From assembly GCF_013340305.1 (NCBI RefSeq), contig NZ_BLVP01000001.1, forward strand, positions 372,001 through 436,000: a stretch of DNA of 64,000 bases. Reading direction: 5' to 3'. Each line of letters starts with the position of its first letter. Position 1 is the first letter of the stretch. The notes under the pieces were generated by a model. It did not search any database and was not told the origin of the DNA. It was given only the letters and a program-made list of their open reading frames with translations. The DNA is from Desulfovibrio psychrotolerans. GTDB taxonomy: Bacteria; Desulfobacterota; Desulfovibrionia; Desulfovibrionales; Desulfovibrionaceae. The position numbers and the translations under genes are program-made. Of this stretch, positions 47,879 through 57,856 are shown piece after piece.

Positions 47879-48508
47879 TCAAACCGCCATGGCGCGCCGC
47901 AGCCGTGCCACCATATCCCCTATGTCTTCCGCCCCCACAATCTCGGAAACCAGCGCACAGCACCGTGCCCCCCGGCGCACCACCTCGCCCGCGTTGTGCA
48001 GCTTTATGCCGCCTATGGCCACATGGGGAATATCGTGATTCTGCACCACGTAGTCCAGATACTCCAATCCCACGGGCGCACACACATCCTTCTTGGTTTT
48101 GGTGGCGAATATGGGCCCCACGCCTATGTAGTCCGCCCCCCGCGCTATGGCATCCCTGCATTGCTCCGGGGAATGGGTGGAAAGCCCGATAATCCTGTCC
48201 GGACCCACCAGCTGCCGCACAGCCTCCACAGGCAGGTCCTCCTGCCCCACATGCACACCGTCCGCATCCACCAGCAGGGCAATGTCCACATGGTCATTCA
48301 CAATAAAGGTGCAGCCCGCCTCGCGGGTCATGCGGCGCAGCTGCAGGCATTCGTCCAGCATCACGCCCGCCTTGCGCTCCTTTTCCCGGTACTGCAGCAC
48401 CCGTATGCCTGCGCGGAGCATGGCATCCGCCACCTCTATCACCGACCTCCCGCGCGAAAGCCCCGCATCGGTCAGCGCATAAATATCCGTATCCAGTACC
48501 CGCTTCAT
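47879..48508 (-). CDS. thiE: Thiamine-phosphate synthase
   Basis: A 209-residue TIM-barrel enzyme that joins hydroxymethylpyrimidine pyrophosphate and the thiazole phosphate. Visible family motifs: YALTDAGLSRGRS, VLQYREKERK, FIVNDHVDIALLVDADGVHV, IIGLSTHSPEQC, GADYIGVGPIFATKTKKD and HVAIGGI. The ATG at 48508 has GGGAGGG 5 bases upstream and overlaps the thiF stop by four bases (ATGA). It is the last gene of the thiS-G-H-F-E operon controlled by the tandem TPP riboswitches; thiC and thiD are not in this window. Confidence 0.94.
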   Translation of the reverse strand: MKRVLDTDIYALTDAGLSRGRSVIEVADAMLRAGIRVLQYREKERKAGVMLDECLQLRRMTREAGCTFIVNDHVDIALLVDADGVHVGQEDLPVEAVRQLVGPDRIIGLSTHSPEQCRDAIARGADYIGVGPIFATKTKKDVCAPVGLEYLDYVVQNHDIPHVAIGGIKLHNAGEVVRRGARCCALVSEIVGAEDIGDMVARLRRAMAV

Positions 48509-49173
48509 GGCTCCCTCCCTGTGGATTCCGTCATGCACGCACCGCCGTCCGCAACGCAGGTGCCGAGCAGATGCGCCAACACCGCGTCCGCCTGCATGGC
48601 TGCCGCCATCATCACACGCGGCGCCATGGGCGGCATCGTGGCTATGTCACTGGAAAAATCTCCCACAAACACCGCCACGTCCCGCACTGCGCGCCGCCGC
48701 ATGTCGGCACCGCCCCAGCCCGCCATACCGGAAGCGGAAACAAAAAACGCCCCGCGGCCCAAAAAAGCCTCCGCCATCATCTTCTTGCCGTCCACGCCGT
48801 CCAGTGCCTCCACCACCACACCGCACCCCGCAAAAACCCCGCAAACGCAGGCAGGTGTCAGCTCTATCCGGTGCATGGTCACACACACGGCGGGATTAAT
48901 CGCCAGAAGATTGTCCCGCAGAGCCGCCACCTTGGCGCGCCCGGCCTGATCGGGAAAATAGAACTGCCGGTTCAGGTTGGAGCCGTCCACGCAGTCATGG
49001 TCTGCAATGACAAACTGTCGCACACCGCAGCGCGCCAGCAGCATGGCGCAGTTGGACCCAAGCCCTCCCGCACCGGCAATGCCCACCCGCGCTGTCGCCA
49101 GAATCTCCACCTGTTCCGGCGTAAGATACCGGCGTAACCCGCTGTCGAACAGCGTCTCGGTCCCGTTTTCCAT
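48505..49173 (-). CDS. thiF: ThiF-family adenylyltransferase for ThiS
   Basis: A 222-residue E1-like enzyme that adenylates the C-terminal Gly-Gly of ThiS so that sulfur can be attached. It shows ARVGIAGAGGLGSNCAMLLA (ATP loop), DHDCVDGSNLNRQFYF and the Arg finger. It lacks the C-terminal CxxC pairs that bind zinc in E. coli ThiF, so it belongs to the short ThiF branch found in thiH-containing anaerobes. The ATG at 49173 has GGAAGGGG upstream, although GTGATGG gives an alternative GTG one codon before. The gene lies between thiH and thiE. Confidence 0.9.
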   Translation of the reverse strand: MENGTETLFDSGLRRYLTPEQVEILATARVGIAGAGGLGSNCAMLLARCGVRQFVIADHDCVDGSNLNRQFYFPDQAGRAKVAALRDNLLAINPAVCVTMHRIELTPACVCGVFAGCGVVVEALDGVDGKKMMAEAFLGRGAFFVSASGMAGWGGADMRRRAVRDVAVFVGDFSSDIATMPPMAPRVMMAAAMQADAVLAHLLGTCVADGGACMTESTGREP

Positions 49174-49212
49174 CACCCCTTCCCTATGTGTTCCGTCACG
49201 CATACGCCCCGG

Positions 49213-50340
49213 CTACACCGCCACGGCGCAAACGCCGTCCAAAGGCTCCCAGTCCTTGAAGACCGGCTGATACCCCCGCCGCCGTATGGCATCGCACACC
49301 TCTTCCACGCTCCGGGGATCGGAAATCTCAAACTGCCCCACACTCTCCGTTTCACCGGCATGTCCGCCCACGGCGGTGCTCACTCCCGCAGACATGCGGG
49401 TCACGCCAAGGGGAATAAGATGGTCGCGCAACACGGCAGGCTCACGGGTAGAAATTGTTATGCCGCAGCGCGGCAGAAAAATGCGCAGGGCAAGCAGTAT
49501 CTGCACCAGTTCCCTGTCTCCCACCAGTGAGGCAGGCTGGAACGCTCCGGCATGGGGCCGCATGCGCGGCAGCGAAACCGCCACATCTGTCTGCGGATAC
49601 TTCTTTTGCAGATACCGGGCATGCATACCCGTAAAAAAGGCATCGCGCCGCCAGTCATCCAGTCCCAGAAGCGCCCCCACGTTCACCAAGCGCATCCCCG
49701 CGCGGCATCCGCGCTCCGGCGCATCCAGCCTGAAGGTGTAGTCACGCTTGGGGCCGGCGGGATGCAACGCCGCATACAGGCTGCGGTTGTATGTCTCCTG
49801 AAACAGCGTCAGCGAATCCACACCGCACCGCAAAAGATGCGCATACTCCTCCTCCCGCATGGCAAAGACCTCCACGCCGAGCGAAGGAAAAAAGTCGCGC
49901 AATGTCCGGGCAGCCTGCCCGATATACTCTGCGGAAGCCCTGCGCGGCGCATCCCCCGTAAGCAGCAGAAGCTGCTTCAACCCGGAAGCCGCAATGGCTT
50001 CCCCTTCACGGAGAATTCCTTCCTCGTCCAGCATGGTCCGGGCAATATCGTTGCGGGCGTTGAATCCGCAATACACGCACTGGTTCGTGCAGTGGTTGGA
50101 AAGATACAACGGCGTGAACAACTGAATGGTCCGCCCGAAGTGCTGCACAGAAAGCGCATTCGCGCGCTGTGCCATGGCTTCCAGCAACCCTGCCGCAGCG
50201 GGAGAAAGCAGGGTCAGATACTCATCCGGGCCCAGCACGGGTTTTTCCAGTGCCCGGCGCACGTCCGCCTCGGTCACCGCCTGCGCCGCACCCGGAATAT
50301 CCGCCCCCTCATACCCCTGCACAACCCGCAGGAACGACAT
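49213..50340 (-). CDS. thiH: 2-iminoacetate synthase (radical SAM tyrosine lyase)
   Basis: A 375-residue radical SAM enzyme that cleaves tyrosine to dehydroglycine and p-cresol for thiazole formation, the oxygen-sensitive alternative to ThiO. The cluster motif CTNQCVYCGF (C84, C88, C91) is followed by LLLLTGDAPRRA, the SAM-binding GE-like site, and LETYNR-like LFQETYNRSLY. VSLPRMRPHAG and ISTREPAVLRDHLIPLGVT are typical of ThiH. The ATG at 50340 begins directly after the thiG stop. Its presence fits an anaerobe. Confidence 0.95.
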   Translation of the reverse strand: MSFLRVVQGYEGADIPGAAQAVTEADVRRALEKPVLGPDEYLTLLSPAAAGLLEAMAQRANALSVQHFGRTIQLFTPLYLSNHCTNQCVYCGFNARNDIARTMLDEEGILREGEAIAASGLKQLLLLTGDAPRRASAEYIGQAARTLRDFFPSLGVEVFAMREEEYAHLLRCGVDSLTLFQETYNRSLYAALHPAGPKRDYTFRLDAPERGCRAGMRLVNVGALLGLDDWRRDAFFTGMHARYLQKKYPQTDVAVSLPRMRPHAGAFQPASLVGDRELVQILLALRIFLPRCGITISTREPAVLRDHLIPLGVTRMSAGVSTAVGGHAGETESVGQFEISDPRSVEEVCDAIRRRGYQPVFKDWEPLDGVCAVAV

Positions 50341-51132
50341 TTACGCCTCCCCCAAAAAGCCCGTCAGGGGCGAAGAGGCATCGGCCCCGCCGCAGAGCAC
50401 AGGTCCCGCCTTGGCAAGAAAAGCCTGCCGTCCGGCCCGTACCGCCGCGCCAAACGCCATGGCCATGGCAACCGGGTCGCCCGCCGTGGCTATGGCGGTA
50501 TTCACAAGACAGGCATCCGCCCCCATCTCCATGGCCTCACACGCCTCAGAGGGCCTGCCTATTCCGGCATCCACCACAATGGGCACCCCTATTTCCTCAA
50601 TCAGAATCCCAATCATCTCCTTGGTCCGCAGCCCCCGGTTGGTGCCTATGGGTGCCCCCAGCGGCATCACCGCGGCGGCTCCCGCATTTTCCAGATCACG
50701 GGCCACATACAGGTCAGGGTTCATGTAGGGCAGCACCACAAACCCCTCCTTTGCCAGTATTTCCGTAGCCCGCGCCGTCTGATAACCGTCTGGCAGCAGG
50801 TAGCGGCTGTCGGAGATGACTTCAATCTTTATCCAGTTGCCACATCCGGCGGCGCGAGCCAGCCGGGCAATACGCACGGCCTCTTCGGCATCGCGCGCGC
50901 CGGAGGTGTTGGGCAGGAGCCGCATATGCTTCGGAATGTGCTGCATCACATTCCCCGTGGCGGCGCGCATATCCACCCTTCTCAGGGCCACGGTTATGAC
51001 CTGTGAACCGGAAGCCCGGCAAACTTCGGGGATGACTGCGTCAGAGCCGTACTTCCCGGTACCGACAAACAGCCTGCTCTGCAGCACGCTGCCGCCGATA
51101 ACCAAGGGATCGTTGTTGTTGTCGTGTTCCAT
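50341..51132 (-). CDS. thiG: Thiazole synthase
   Basis: A 263-residue TIM-barrel enzyme that makes the thiazole phosphate from DXP, dehydroglycine and ThiS-thiocarboxylate. It shows [60 protein letters not shown], the catalytic Lys, [11 protein letters not shown] and [20 protein letters not shown]. The ATG at 51132 shares one base with the thiS stop (TGATG), so translation is coupled. Confidence 0.96.
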
Positions 51133-51332
51133 CAGCCCCCTCCTACAAAGTGCAGGATTTCAAGTTCATCCCCGTCCGCCAGCCGGACGTCTTCCCACGC
51201 ATCGGTCATAACCACGGAGCGGTTATGCTCCACCACCACGGAACGCACATCCAGCCCCCTGCCCTCCAGAAAAGTCCGCAGGGGCATGTTTTCCGCGCAT
51301 TCCACCTGTTCACCGTTCACACGAATGATCAT
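51132..51332 (-). CDS. thiS: Sulfur carrier protein
   Basis: A 66-residue ubiquitin-like protein, [18 protein letters not shown] at the start and [16 protein letters not shown] at the end. The terminal Gly-Gly is adenylated by ThiF and then thiocarboxylated. The ATG at 51332 follows GAGAGGG. It is the first gene of the operon and starts 37 bases after the second riboswitch terminator. Confidence 0.92.
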
Positions 51333-51368
51333 GCCCTCTCCCACCGTTGTCCGGCACCGGACCGGAAC

Positions 51369-51395
51369 AAAAAAAGGCCTGCCGCAAGGCAAGCC
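51369..51395 (-). terminator. Terminator of the proximal TPP riboswitch
   Basis: On the minus strand GGCTTGCC (51395-51388) pairs with GGCAGGCC (51383-51376, one G-T) and is followed by seven T. It directly follows the proximal riboswitch and precedes thiS. The stem closely resembles that of the terminator behind the distal riboswitch. Confidence 0.85.
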
Positions 51396-51420
51396 GTAAA
51401 CGCACTCCCCCATGGAGCAC

Positions 51421-51512
51421 AGGCTTCCCTCCGGCGGTCCGAACCGCTTCAGGTTCAAGGGGTCTGGGCCATGCCCACTCTCAGCCCGCCGCAAAGCGGA
51501 CTCCCCCAGCCA
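51421..51512 (-). promoter_or_regulatory. Proximal TPP riboswitch
   Basis: On the minus strand the THI-box landmarks appear in order: a GGGGGAG start strand, GGGCTGAGAGTGGG, ACCCCTTGAACCTGA, an extended P2-P4 arm and GGAGGGAAGCC closing P1 (GGCT with AGCC). It binds thiamine pyrophosphate and should favour the terminator immediately downstream, switching thiSGHFE off. Confidence 0.92.
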
Positions 51513-51631
51513 ATCCCGGCACCCGTGCGGGCGCGTTACCGCAGCACGGGTGAACAATTCAACAACTCTCAAACCGCCCGAAAACGGTGCGCCATGAACG
51601 GACAGGCAAAAAGCAACAGAGCGCCTCAAAC

Positions 51632-51661
51632 AAAAAAACGCCTGCCCTGATGAGGCAAGCG
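51632..51661 (-). terminator. Terminator of the distal TPP riboswitch
   Basis: On the minus strand CGCTTGCC (51661-51654) and GGCAGGCG (51646-51639) form the stem, one G-T, followed by seven T. It lies between the two riboswitches, so transcription can already stop before the second one. Confidence 0.85.
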
Positions 51662-51695
51662 TGGCGGCAACCCTTGTACGGAACAGCGGCTGCTG

Positions 51696-51792
51696 TAGCT
51701 TCCCTCCGCCGGTGCAAGCCGGTTCAGGTTCAAAGGGTCTGGGCTTCACCCACTCTCAGCCGTGCTGCATTGCCGCATGGCTCCCCTAGCTG
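51696..51792 (-). promoter_or_regulatory. Distal TPP riboswitch
   Basis: A second complete THI-box on the minus strand: AGGGGAG, CGGCTGAGAGTGGG, ACCCTTTGAACCTGA and GGAGGGAAGCT, with P1 formed by AGCT and AGCT. It is nearest the promoter. Its sequence differs from the proximal copy outside the conserved core, so this is an old duplication rather than a recent one. Confidence 0.92.
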
Positions 51793-51801
51793 TTTACGTG
51801 A

Positions 51802-51830
51802 ACAGTACGCAACGGCGGTCACGTTGTAAA
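51802..51830 (-). promoter_or_regulatory. Promoter of the thiamine operon
   Basis: On the minus strand TTTACA (51830-51825), a 17-base spacer and TACTGT (51807-51802), placing the start a few bases before the distal riboswitch P1. The -35 matches 5 of 6; the -10 is weak. Confidence 0.55.
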
Positions 51831-51910
51831 GACCTTTATGCTCCCCGCATCGCTGCCCCGTGCGCCGCAACGGAATAGGGCCCGTAATCCCCGACCATGG
51901 TTCCTTTTCC

Positions 51911-51939
51911 TTGCACAGTGGCACGATTAGAAATATTGT
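51911..51939 (+). promoter_or_regulatory. Candidate promoter of the NikL-like gene
   Basis: TTGCAC (51911-51916), a 17-base spacer and TATTGT (51934-51939), about 33 bases before the start codon. It is divergent from the thiamine promoter. Confidence 0.45.
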
Positions 51940-51971
51940 CACACCACATCAGCACAAACCGGAGGCCCCGT

Positions 51972-52763
51972 ATGTCACGCATCTCCTGCATATCTCGCAT
52001 CTCCCTGCCATCACCAACCACCCGCACATCAGGCACTGCCCCGGCATCCCGCCCGCAGTGCCTTGTCGCAGCCCCGTCCCGTCTGCTGTGCGCCATGCTT
52101 GCCGCGTTCATGCTGTCCTCCCTGTTCTGGGCAACACACGCCCACGCCCACCGCGTGAACATCTTCGCATGGGTGGAAGGAAACGCCATCCACACGGAAT
52201 CCTCCTTCAGCAACGGCAACAAGGCCCGCAGCAGTCAGGTAACGGCCACCATCAAAGATACGGGAGACGCCATAGCGCAAGGCATGACCGATGAAGCGGG
52301 CGTATGGAGCTTCACCATACCGCCCCATATCCTCTCAGCAGGGCCGGACATCCTCATCTCCCTGAACGCCAATGAAGGCCATGTGAACACGTGGACGGTG
52401 AAGGGTGCGGAATACGCCCCAGCCCCGTCACAAACGCAGCACGCGCCCGCATCTGCCTCACCGCAGGCGAAAAAGCCCGTCACAGGCGATGACGGCGACA
52501 TGCCCCCGTTTATGGAATCCCACACCGCACCCACGCCAGCCGAAAAAACACAGACAGGCAAGCCGCAGGCAGCCCTGCCCGCATCGGATGAACTGCGGAC
52601 CATCGTGGAAGAGGCTCTGGAAAAAAAACTCGCGCCCATCCGCAGACAGCTTGCAGAAGAATCCCAACGCGGCCCCAGCCTGCAGGATATCATAGGCGGC
52701 ATTGGGTATATCATCGGGCTTGCGGGCATTGCCGCGTTCATGGCGGCACGCAGAAAAAAATAA
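51972..52763 (+). CDS. NikL/CbiL-like nickel-cobalt transporter accessory protein, solitary
   Basis: A 263-residue membrane-anchored protein. A long N-terminus ends in a signal anchor (about residues 40-62, AAFMLSSLFWATHAHAH). A beta-sandwich follows: HRVNIFAWVEGNAIHTESSF and DEAGVWSFTIPPHI. Then comes a Pro/Ala-rich, His-poor linker, a coiled coil and a C-terminal helix GGIGYIIGLAGIAAFMAARR. This is the pattern of NikL/CbiL proteins that accompany ECF-type Ni/Co importers. In other genomes it sits with nikMNQO; none is present here, and the next gene is on the opposite strand. The ATG at 51972 follows GGAGG. Confidence 0.72.
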   Translation: MSRISCISRISLPSPTTRTSGTAPASRPQCLVAAPSRLLCAMLAAFMLSSLFWATHAHAHRVNIFAWVEGNAIHTESSFSNGNKARSSQVTATIKDTGDAIAQGMTDEAGVWSFTIPPHILSAGPDILISLNANEGHVNTWTVKGAEYAPAPSQTQHAPASASPQAKKPVTGDDGDMPPFMESHTAPTPAEKTQTGKPQAALPASDELRTIVEEALEKKLAPIRRQLAEESQRGPSLQDIIGGIGYIIGLAGIAAFMAARRKK

Positions 52764-56938: not shown

Positions 56939-57013
<75 letters not shown>

Positions 57014-57440
57014 CTTGATCATCTGCCGCACATGGCCTTACGACTCCATATGCGGCCTTTCATACACATGATGAACCCCGGCCCTCTTTCCGGGGTTCTT
57101 CCTTTTTCGTCCAGTCTCGTCCAGTTTCGTCCGGTTCTGTCCGGCTTCCCCCCACTCCCGGCAAGCAGCCATCCCGTTTCGTTCTTCCGCGAACATTGAA
57201 TTGACAAGTAGCCGTGGCTATGGCAACTTCCTGCTTCCCCAAGCACTGGTACGGCGCGCAAAGCCGCTTCCAACAGCGGTTACGACAGCACGGTGCCGGG
57301 GCGGGATAAGTTTTTCAAAAAAGTGCTTGCAATCCTTTCCGGGTTCAGGCAAAAGCACTCCGGCGAGAGGCAATCCATGGTGATTCCTCAAGGATACAAA
57401 TGACTTCACTGTCACTGTATCCACGCCGAAGGAACGATGA
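57014..57440. other. Spacer between tRNA-Gly copy 1 and tRNA-Cys
   Basis: About 430 bases holding a terminator at 57072-57108 and, beyond it, no recognisable gene. A TTGACA at 57200-57205 lacks a good -10, so the promoter of the next tRNA is not identified. Confidence 0.45.
57072..57108 (+). terminator. Terminator after tRNA-Gly copy 1
   Basis: AACCCCGG (57074-57081) and CCGGGGTT (57090-57097) form the stem, followed by a T-rich tail CTTCCTTTTTCG. It separates the first tRNA from the rest of the cluster. Confidence 0.7.
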
Positions 57441-57515
<75 letters not shown>

Positions 57516-57519
57516 TAAT

Positions 57520-57594
<75 letters not shown>

Positions 57595-57604
57595 GAGAAC
57601 AAGG

Positions 57605-57626
57605 GCCGGTGGCGCAAGCCACCGGC
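57605..57626 (+). other. GNRA-loop hairpin between tRNA genes
   Basis: GCCGGTGGC and GCCACCGGC form a perfect 9-bp stem with a GCAA tetraloop, 10 bases after tRNA-Gly copy 2. It could be a processing site or a leaky terminator; the T-run is short. Confidence 0.45.
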
Positions 57627-57672
57627 ATTTGCCCGAAAAGGCAATGTTGATCAGGAGCCGTTTTACATACGT

Positions 57673-57747
57673 GCGGGAATAACTCAGCGGTAGAGTGTCA
57701 GCTTCCCAAGCTGAAGGTCGCGGGTTCAAATCCCGTTTCCCGCTCCA
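57673..57747 (+). tRNA. tRNA-Gly (CCC)
   Basis: 75 bases with encoded CCA. The 5' and 3' arms are almost identical to the tRNA-Gly(GCC) genes; the differences lie in the anticodon arm (CAGCTTCCCAAGCTG, anticodon CCC) and a few nearby positions. It reads GGG codons. Confidence 0.92.
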
Positions 57748-57781
57748 TAAGTCGATACGCCGCAAGGCAGATATATTTCCT

Positions 57782-57856
<75 letters not shown>

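Follow-up and report, generated by a model that had tools for sequence, protein, structure and literature searches.

The thi operon described here lies on the minus strand of a 64-kb window (the window being the whole stretch of DNA that was analysed) and comprises thiS, thiG, thiH, thiF and thiE, in that order; the coordinates of the genes and of the features in their leader are collected in Table 1. For thiG, which is identified by its Pfam family, no NCBIfam model scores above its cut-off. The single thiC match of the genome is found on a different contig. Divergent from the thi leader, at 51972-52763 (+), lies a gene whose product scores 171.3 bits (cut-off 100) against a nickel/cobalt ECF transporter subunit of the NikL family and for which Pfam gives no match, and five tRNA genes are clustered at 56939-57853 (+), three of them identical (tRNA-Gly, with the anticodon read by eye) and accompanied by another Gly-like and one Cys-like gene.

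Ahead of this one operon stand two complete units, each consisting of an aptamer and a terminator-like expression platform. The initial annotation had placed two same-strand THI-box aptamers before thiSGHFE and proposed a search of the window with Rfam RF00059 as a check, with a single matching copy counting against the claim. That search, run over the whole 64-kb window, matches RF00059 exactly twice, both times on the minus strand, from end to end (model positions 1-105 of 105) and above the gathering score of 54.3 bits, which bears the claim out. No other riboswitch family reaches its own threshold within the window, and the genome (3.79 Mb, 99.86% complete) holds no further RF00059 match at E <= 0.001 beyond the tandem pair. 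Three words important for the TPP riboswitch core, CTGAGA, GAACCTGA and GACCC, are present in both aptamer copies at all 17 tandem loci that we examined. A fourth pattern, CCG[GT]AGG, was missed in copy A of four of these loci (G000, G079, G120 and G151); at this site copy A of the window reads CCGGCGGAGGG, and in the alignment this fits CCggCGuAGGG, the Rfam consensus. The interval to which attention was originally drawn, 51369-51830, has the final U of terminator B at one end and the opening base of a TTTACA box at the other.

Table 1. Features of the thi operon and its leader, listed in the direction of transcription (positions within the window)
Feature	Position	Strand	Evidence
Promoter-like site	51802..51830	-	TTTACA 51830-51825, 17 bases, TACTGT 51807-51802; ends 5 bases before aptamer A match
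TPP aptamer A, upstream copy	51684..51797	-	RF00059, 64.7 bits, E 2.1e-10, full model
Intrinsic terminator A (predicted)	51632..51662	-	10-pair stem 51662-51638, seven U 51638-51632
Linker hairpin, terminator A to aptamer B (role putative)	51520..51552	-	9-pair outer stem, no U run after it
TPP aptamer B, downstream copy	51409..51517	-	RF00059, 64.8 bits, E 1.9e-10, full model
Intrinsic terminator B (predicted)	51369..51395	-	8-pair stem 51395-51376, seven U 51375-51369
Candidate ribosome-binding site of thiS (likely)	51333..51342	-	purine-rich GGGAGAGGGC, read from sequence
thiS, sulfur carrier	51132..51332	-	TIGR01683, 70.6 bits, cut-off 37.45
thiG, thiazole synthase	50341..51132	-	PF05690, E 1.6e-102
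thiH, 2-iminoacetate synthase	49213..50340	-	TIGR02351, 502.5 bits, cut-off 380
thiF, ThiS adenylyltransferase	48505..49203	-	NF006395, 228.1 bits, cut-off 159
thiE, thiamine phosphate synthase	47879..48538	-	TIGR00693, 213.6 bits, cut-off 145.1

Each aptamer is followed by a predicted intrinsic terminator, and the two are, as had been claimed, near-identical stems with seven U after each; their inner arms, GCUUGCC/GGCAGGC, are the same in both. Terminator A folds at -15.6 kcal/mol (z -5.5 against shuffles) and terminator B (51396-51376) at -14.3 kcal/mol (z -3.6). A terminator scan of 51100-52000 returned three sites where 1.0 (sd 1.0) were expected in shuffles, the third being weak and overlapping the first.

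A promoter-like site precedes aptamer A. Since a simple sigma-70 consensus scan of 51100-52000 gave no promoter at threshold on either strand, the call leans on conservation: the TTTACA box lies 31-33 bases ahead of aptamer A in 17 of the 17 tandem loci examined, and downstream of it, after 17 bases in 12 loci and 19 in the other five, comes a hexamer that starts with TA (this pattern was composed after the sequences had been seen, and the longest spacing was taken). Given the position of the box, the RNA would start at the edge of aptamer A. We also considered a second promoter between the copies and rejected it, as none was found in any of the 17 linkers (using one loose pattern) or in the scan of 51100-52000. 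With a single conserved promoter-like site, both units are probably carried on one transcript.

We find that the 5' arm of the terminator, GCUUGCC, is able to pair with the conserved 3' strand of the aptamer, GGAGGGAAGC, across one mismatch. This complementarity exceeds that of shuffled sequences in unit A (p 0.012) and was reached by none of 500 shuffles in unit B, where the test used 500 mononucleotide shuffles and the units, being related sequences, are not independent of one another. Across the window's genus 13 of 20 units score p <= 0.05 and all 20 score p <= 0.108; outside it, one of the nine scored units passes. In genus g38 the five scored A units all fail by a wide margin (p 0.94-0.96); the five of 34 units that were left unscored are the B units of the same genus. 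At these g38 loci (L125-L129) no hairpin with a U run behind it is present in the downstream unit and the upstream terminator's arm lacks complementarity to the 3' strand of the aptamer, and for these reasons the g38 units seem, from their sequences, to use other expression platforms.

Folding with RNAfold treats the two units of the window differently. When unit B is cut after the 5' arm, seven of the eight arm bases pair with the aptamer 3' strand (probability 0.98-1.0), and the full ligand-free fold of this unit is without the terminator. In the cut-off RNA of unit A the partner of the terminator arm is the 5' side of the aptamer (bases 12-18) instead of the 3' strand. The terminator is kept in this unit's full ligand-free fold, at -62.3 kcal/mol as against -60.5 kcal/mol without it, a difference of 1.8 kcal/mol. 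A ligand-free fold that holds the terminator would mean that unit A may partly terminate even when TPP is absent, and as modelled it speaks against a clean symmetric picture of two units. We note that the canonical ligand-bound aptamer is absent from both full folds, the ligand and tertiary contacts having no place in the RNAfold model. The terminator retained in unit A would suit an arrangement in which one switch alone governs the operon, perhaps B, which is open in its ligand-free fold, with the other unit a relic or a near-constitutive terminator; a parallel is offered by the tandem upstream of tenA in B. anthracis, where one of the two riboswitches, the upstream one, was active in RNA-seq (PMC12121620). 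We nevertheless regard control by one switch as unlikely, for the aptamers score alike (64.7 and 64.8 bits), terminators A and B are both intact, and each of the 10 genomes of the genus has both copies above the gathering score, a pattern that a relic would not be expected to show.

Within the window, aptamers A and B share 70.6% identity, so that about 29% of the aligned positions differ. A divergence of this size could mean that the two recognise different ligands (such as thiamin or its monophosphate for one and TPP for the other) or bind with different affinity, which would make the leader a two-input or two-threshold device, and some RNAs classed as TPP riboswitches are reported to favour thiamin or its monophosphate, with the tandem cases still unsorted (PMC9481103). 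That neither copy departs from CTGAGA, GAACCTGA and GACCC at any of the 17 loci makes a difference of this kind quite improbable, more so than control by one switch.

The history of the two copies was followed in a tree built from 48 aptamers (17 A copies, 17 B copies and 14 single ones). The B copies of G000, G079, G120 and G151 cluster together (89/83, not starred), the A copies of the same four cluster with one long-branched single aptamer (98/93), and a topology that makes sisters of the window's A and B is rejected (p-AU 0.007, for a group named after the tree had been seen). From these groupings and the rejected sister placement, it appears that in this part of the genus the two copies have kept separate lineages across several speciation events. 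Among the genus's low-GC species A and B adjoin in the tree, and a clade test of all 10 A copies of the genus gives p-AU 0.51; for the low-GC species both an older shared duplication and later homogenisation are compatible with these results. The near identity of the terminator stems might by itself have suggested that the pair arose by recent tandem duplication, or in assembly, and has no function of its own. For the window's pair this is rejected, with a negligible probability left to it, by an aptamer identity of just 70.6%, by the rejected sister placement and the clustering of the B copies of four species, and by the presence of two copies in all 10 species. That the stems look alike is instead what follows from a shared conserved aptamer strand: both arms complement that one strand, and this shared need is enough to explain the resemblance. 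A terminator arm templated by a conserved aptamer strand thus accounts for look-alike stems, with no recent duplication needed.

In the window's genus (g1) RF00059 matches exactly twice in each of 10 genomes, always in tandem and always with both matches above the gathering score, and the spacing between the matches runs from 65 to 166 bases, that of the window (166) being the longest. Two above-threshold copies in every one of the 10 species suggest that both copies are under selection in the genus. In a sample of 199 genomes of the family, RF00059 was found at E <= 0.001 in 150 and over the cut-off in 138, and tandem pairs occur in at least 20 (10 of g1, at least eight of g38 and at least two of g36), a lower bound that gives no share within g38 or g36. 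The tandem loci discussed here come from 17 of these 20 genomes, with G124, G136 and G145 of g38 left out. Among 17 other genomes with two or three matches we saw none side by side, though a few of their matches lie near contig ends. We also scanned 17 ThiH loci, picked by title and likeness from 80 named loci, of which 14 carry one TPP riboswitch, one carries two and two carry none. The locus with two (L102) is from a MAG titled Halodesulfovibrio sp. SZUA-473 and contains L124, from G151 of the window's genus, letter for letter, so that the window falls close to that MAG; the loci with none, L039 and L045, include just 654 and 1,158 bases upstream of ThiH.

Between terminator A and aptamer B the linker can form a further hairpin, in the window and also in the linkers of L116-L123. 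The stretch 51518-51556, picked by eye, folds at -21.9 kcal/mol (z -2.9); taken as a whole, the 114-base linker of the window does not fold significantly better than shuffles (z -1.0). Within the genus the linker folds with z below -2 at seven of 10 loci (G021, G057, G079, G096, G108, G132 and G142), with G120 (-1.5), G151 (-1.6) and the window falling short of that value, and the linkers of seven loci from two other genera range from -1.9 to 0.3; with these three and seven loci short of z -2, we rejected the hairpin as a general feature of tandem pairs. In the six low-GC species of the genus the linker hairpin is a long two-part stem. All 75 of 75 pair cells of that stem hold across five distinct linkers (six species, two of them identical); one pair alone changes on both sides, a result equalled by 94 of 500 shuffles, and the sequences are at most suggestive of conserved pairing. 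That the linker hairpin is a kept insulator, guarding against mispairing between the near-identical strands of the two riboswitches, is a doubtful proposal; such a hairpin is not among the parts of tandem riboswitches described in the portions of the literature cited here.

The arrangement itself is already known. The initial annotation held a tandem array of this kind to be noteworthy for the group, a view that does not survive the literature: tandem THI-elements with a terminator after each have been in print for thiSGHFE of Desulfovibrio since 2004 (Rodionov et al., PMC545781), and in Oleidesulfovibrio alaskensis G20 both TPP riboswitches are likewise upstream of thiS (PMC11124144). The observation is thus confirmed and its interpretation was right in kind. 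As far as the description in PMC545781 goes, against which the window was compared by description and not letter by letter, the published case has the same operon order, two THI-elements and a terminator for each, in a related group; it comes from another genome, with no difference in kind. The same paper raised the question of steepness, low leak or threshold for thiSGHFE and called for bench tests. Its authors reasoned that off-switches acting independently would do no more than lower the threshold, with no cooperativity, and that retention over long evolution hints at cooperativity or some further advantage; in a note in proof they point to the glycine riboswitch, taken as supporting cooperativity indirectly. 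Later work names the type pseudo-cooperative, counts 213 representatives of tandem TPP riboswitches and expects a steeper curve from them (PMC9481103), and TPP-TPP pairs ahead of thiamin genes, thiS included, are described in Bacillota (PMC12452182). The tandem upstream of tenA in B. anthracis (Welz and Breaker 2007, via PMC9481103 and PMC12121620) resembles the window's pair in having two TPP riboswitches, control by termination and thiamin genes downstream, but it belongs to Bacillota, is headed by tenA and was shown in vitro, whereas the pair in the window is known from sequence. The TPP/HMP-PP tandem (thiS motif; PMC9481103, PMC6478431) also sets two RNA switches before genes of the thiazole branch, but its second element senses HMP-PP, whereas both elements of the window match the TPP model. 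In an RNA-seq survey, six of 57 TPP riboswitches were transcriptionally active under the conditions at hand; the survey included data from D. vulgaris, and none of the six active ones came from these (PMC12121620).

With two aptamers, two terminator stems, the operon, their conservation and the complementarity all computed, we put at about 0.88 the probability that this leader is an instance of the pseudo-cooperative tandem of TPP riboswitches known from thiSGHFE of Desulfovibrio. We infer that both aptamers would bind TPP and that termination would respond to it. One leader RNA would start at the putative promoter just before aptamer A, and polymerase would then meet two TPP-controlled terminators before reaching thiS. 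In the absence of TPP, each aptamer's 3' strand (GGAGGGAAGC) would pair with the 5' arm (GCUUGCC) of its own terminator, holding the terminator open and allowing read-through; with TPP bound, the aptamer would close, the 5' arm would be freed and the terminator would form. Expression would require read-through at both sites, so that, if the units act independently, the two probabilities would multiply, and compared with a single switch the predicted outcome would be a lower leak, a lower half-point and a somewhat steeper response.

The size of these effects can be estimated from a product model, with two equal, independent and perfect terminators unless stated otherwise. In the model the range of ligand over which expression falls from 90% to 10% narrows from 81-fold for one switch to 40-fold for two, and the half-point of the two-switch leader would be 0.41 of K. 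The leak of two independent switches would be squared; with 90% of polymerases stopped at a bound switch, the dynamic range would be 100 in place of 10 and the ligand range 49-fold. If the affinities were tenfold apart and the terminators perfect, that range would be 55-fold. Because in that case the modelled dynamic range grows tenfold and the ligand range narrows only to 49-fold, lower leak would be the larger gain from two switches and steepness the smaller, and under independent action the sharper response is expected to be modest. The pair in the window offers a natural case in which to ask whether repeated off-switches are kept for steepness, low leak or threshold.
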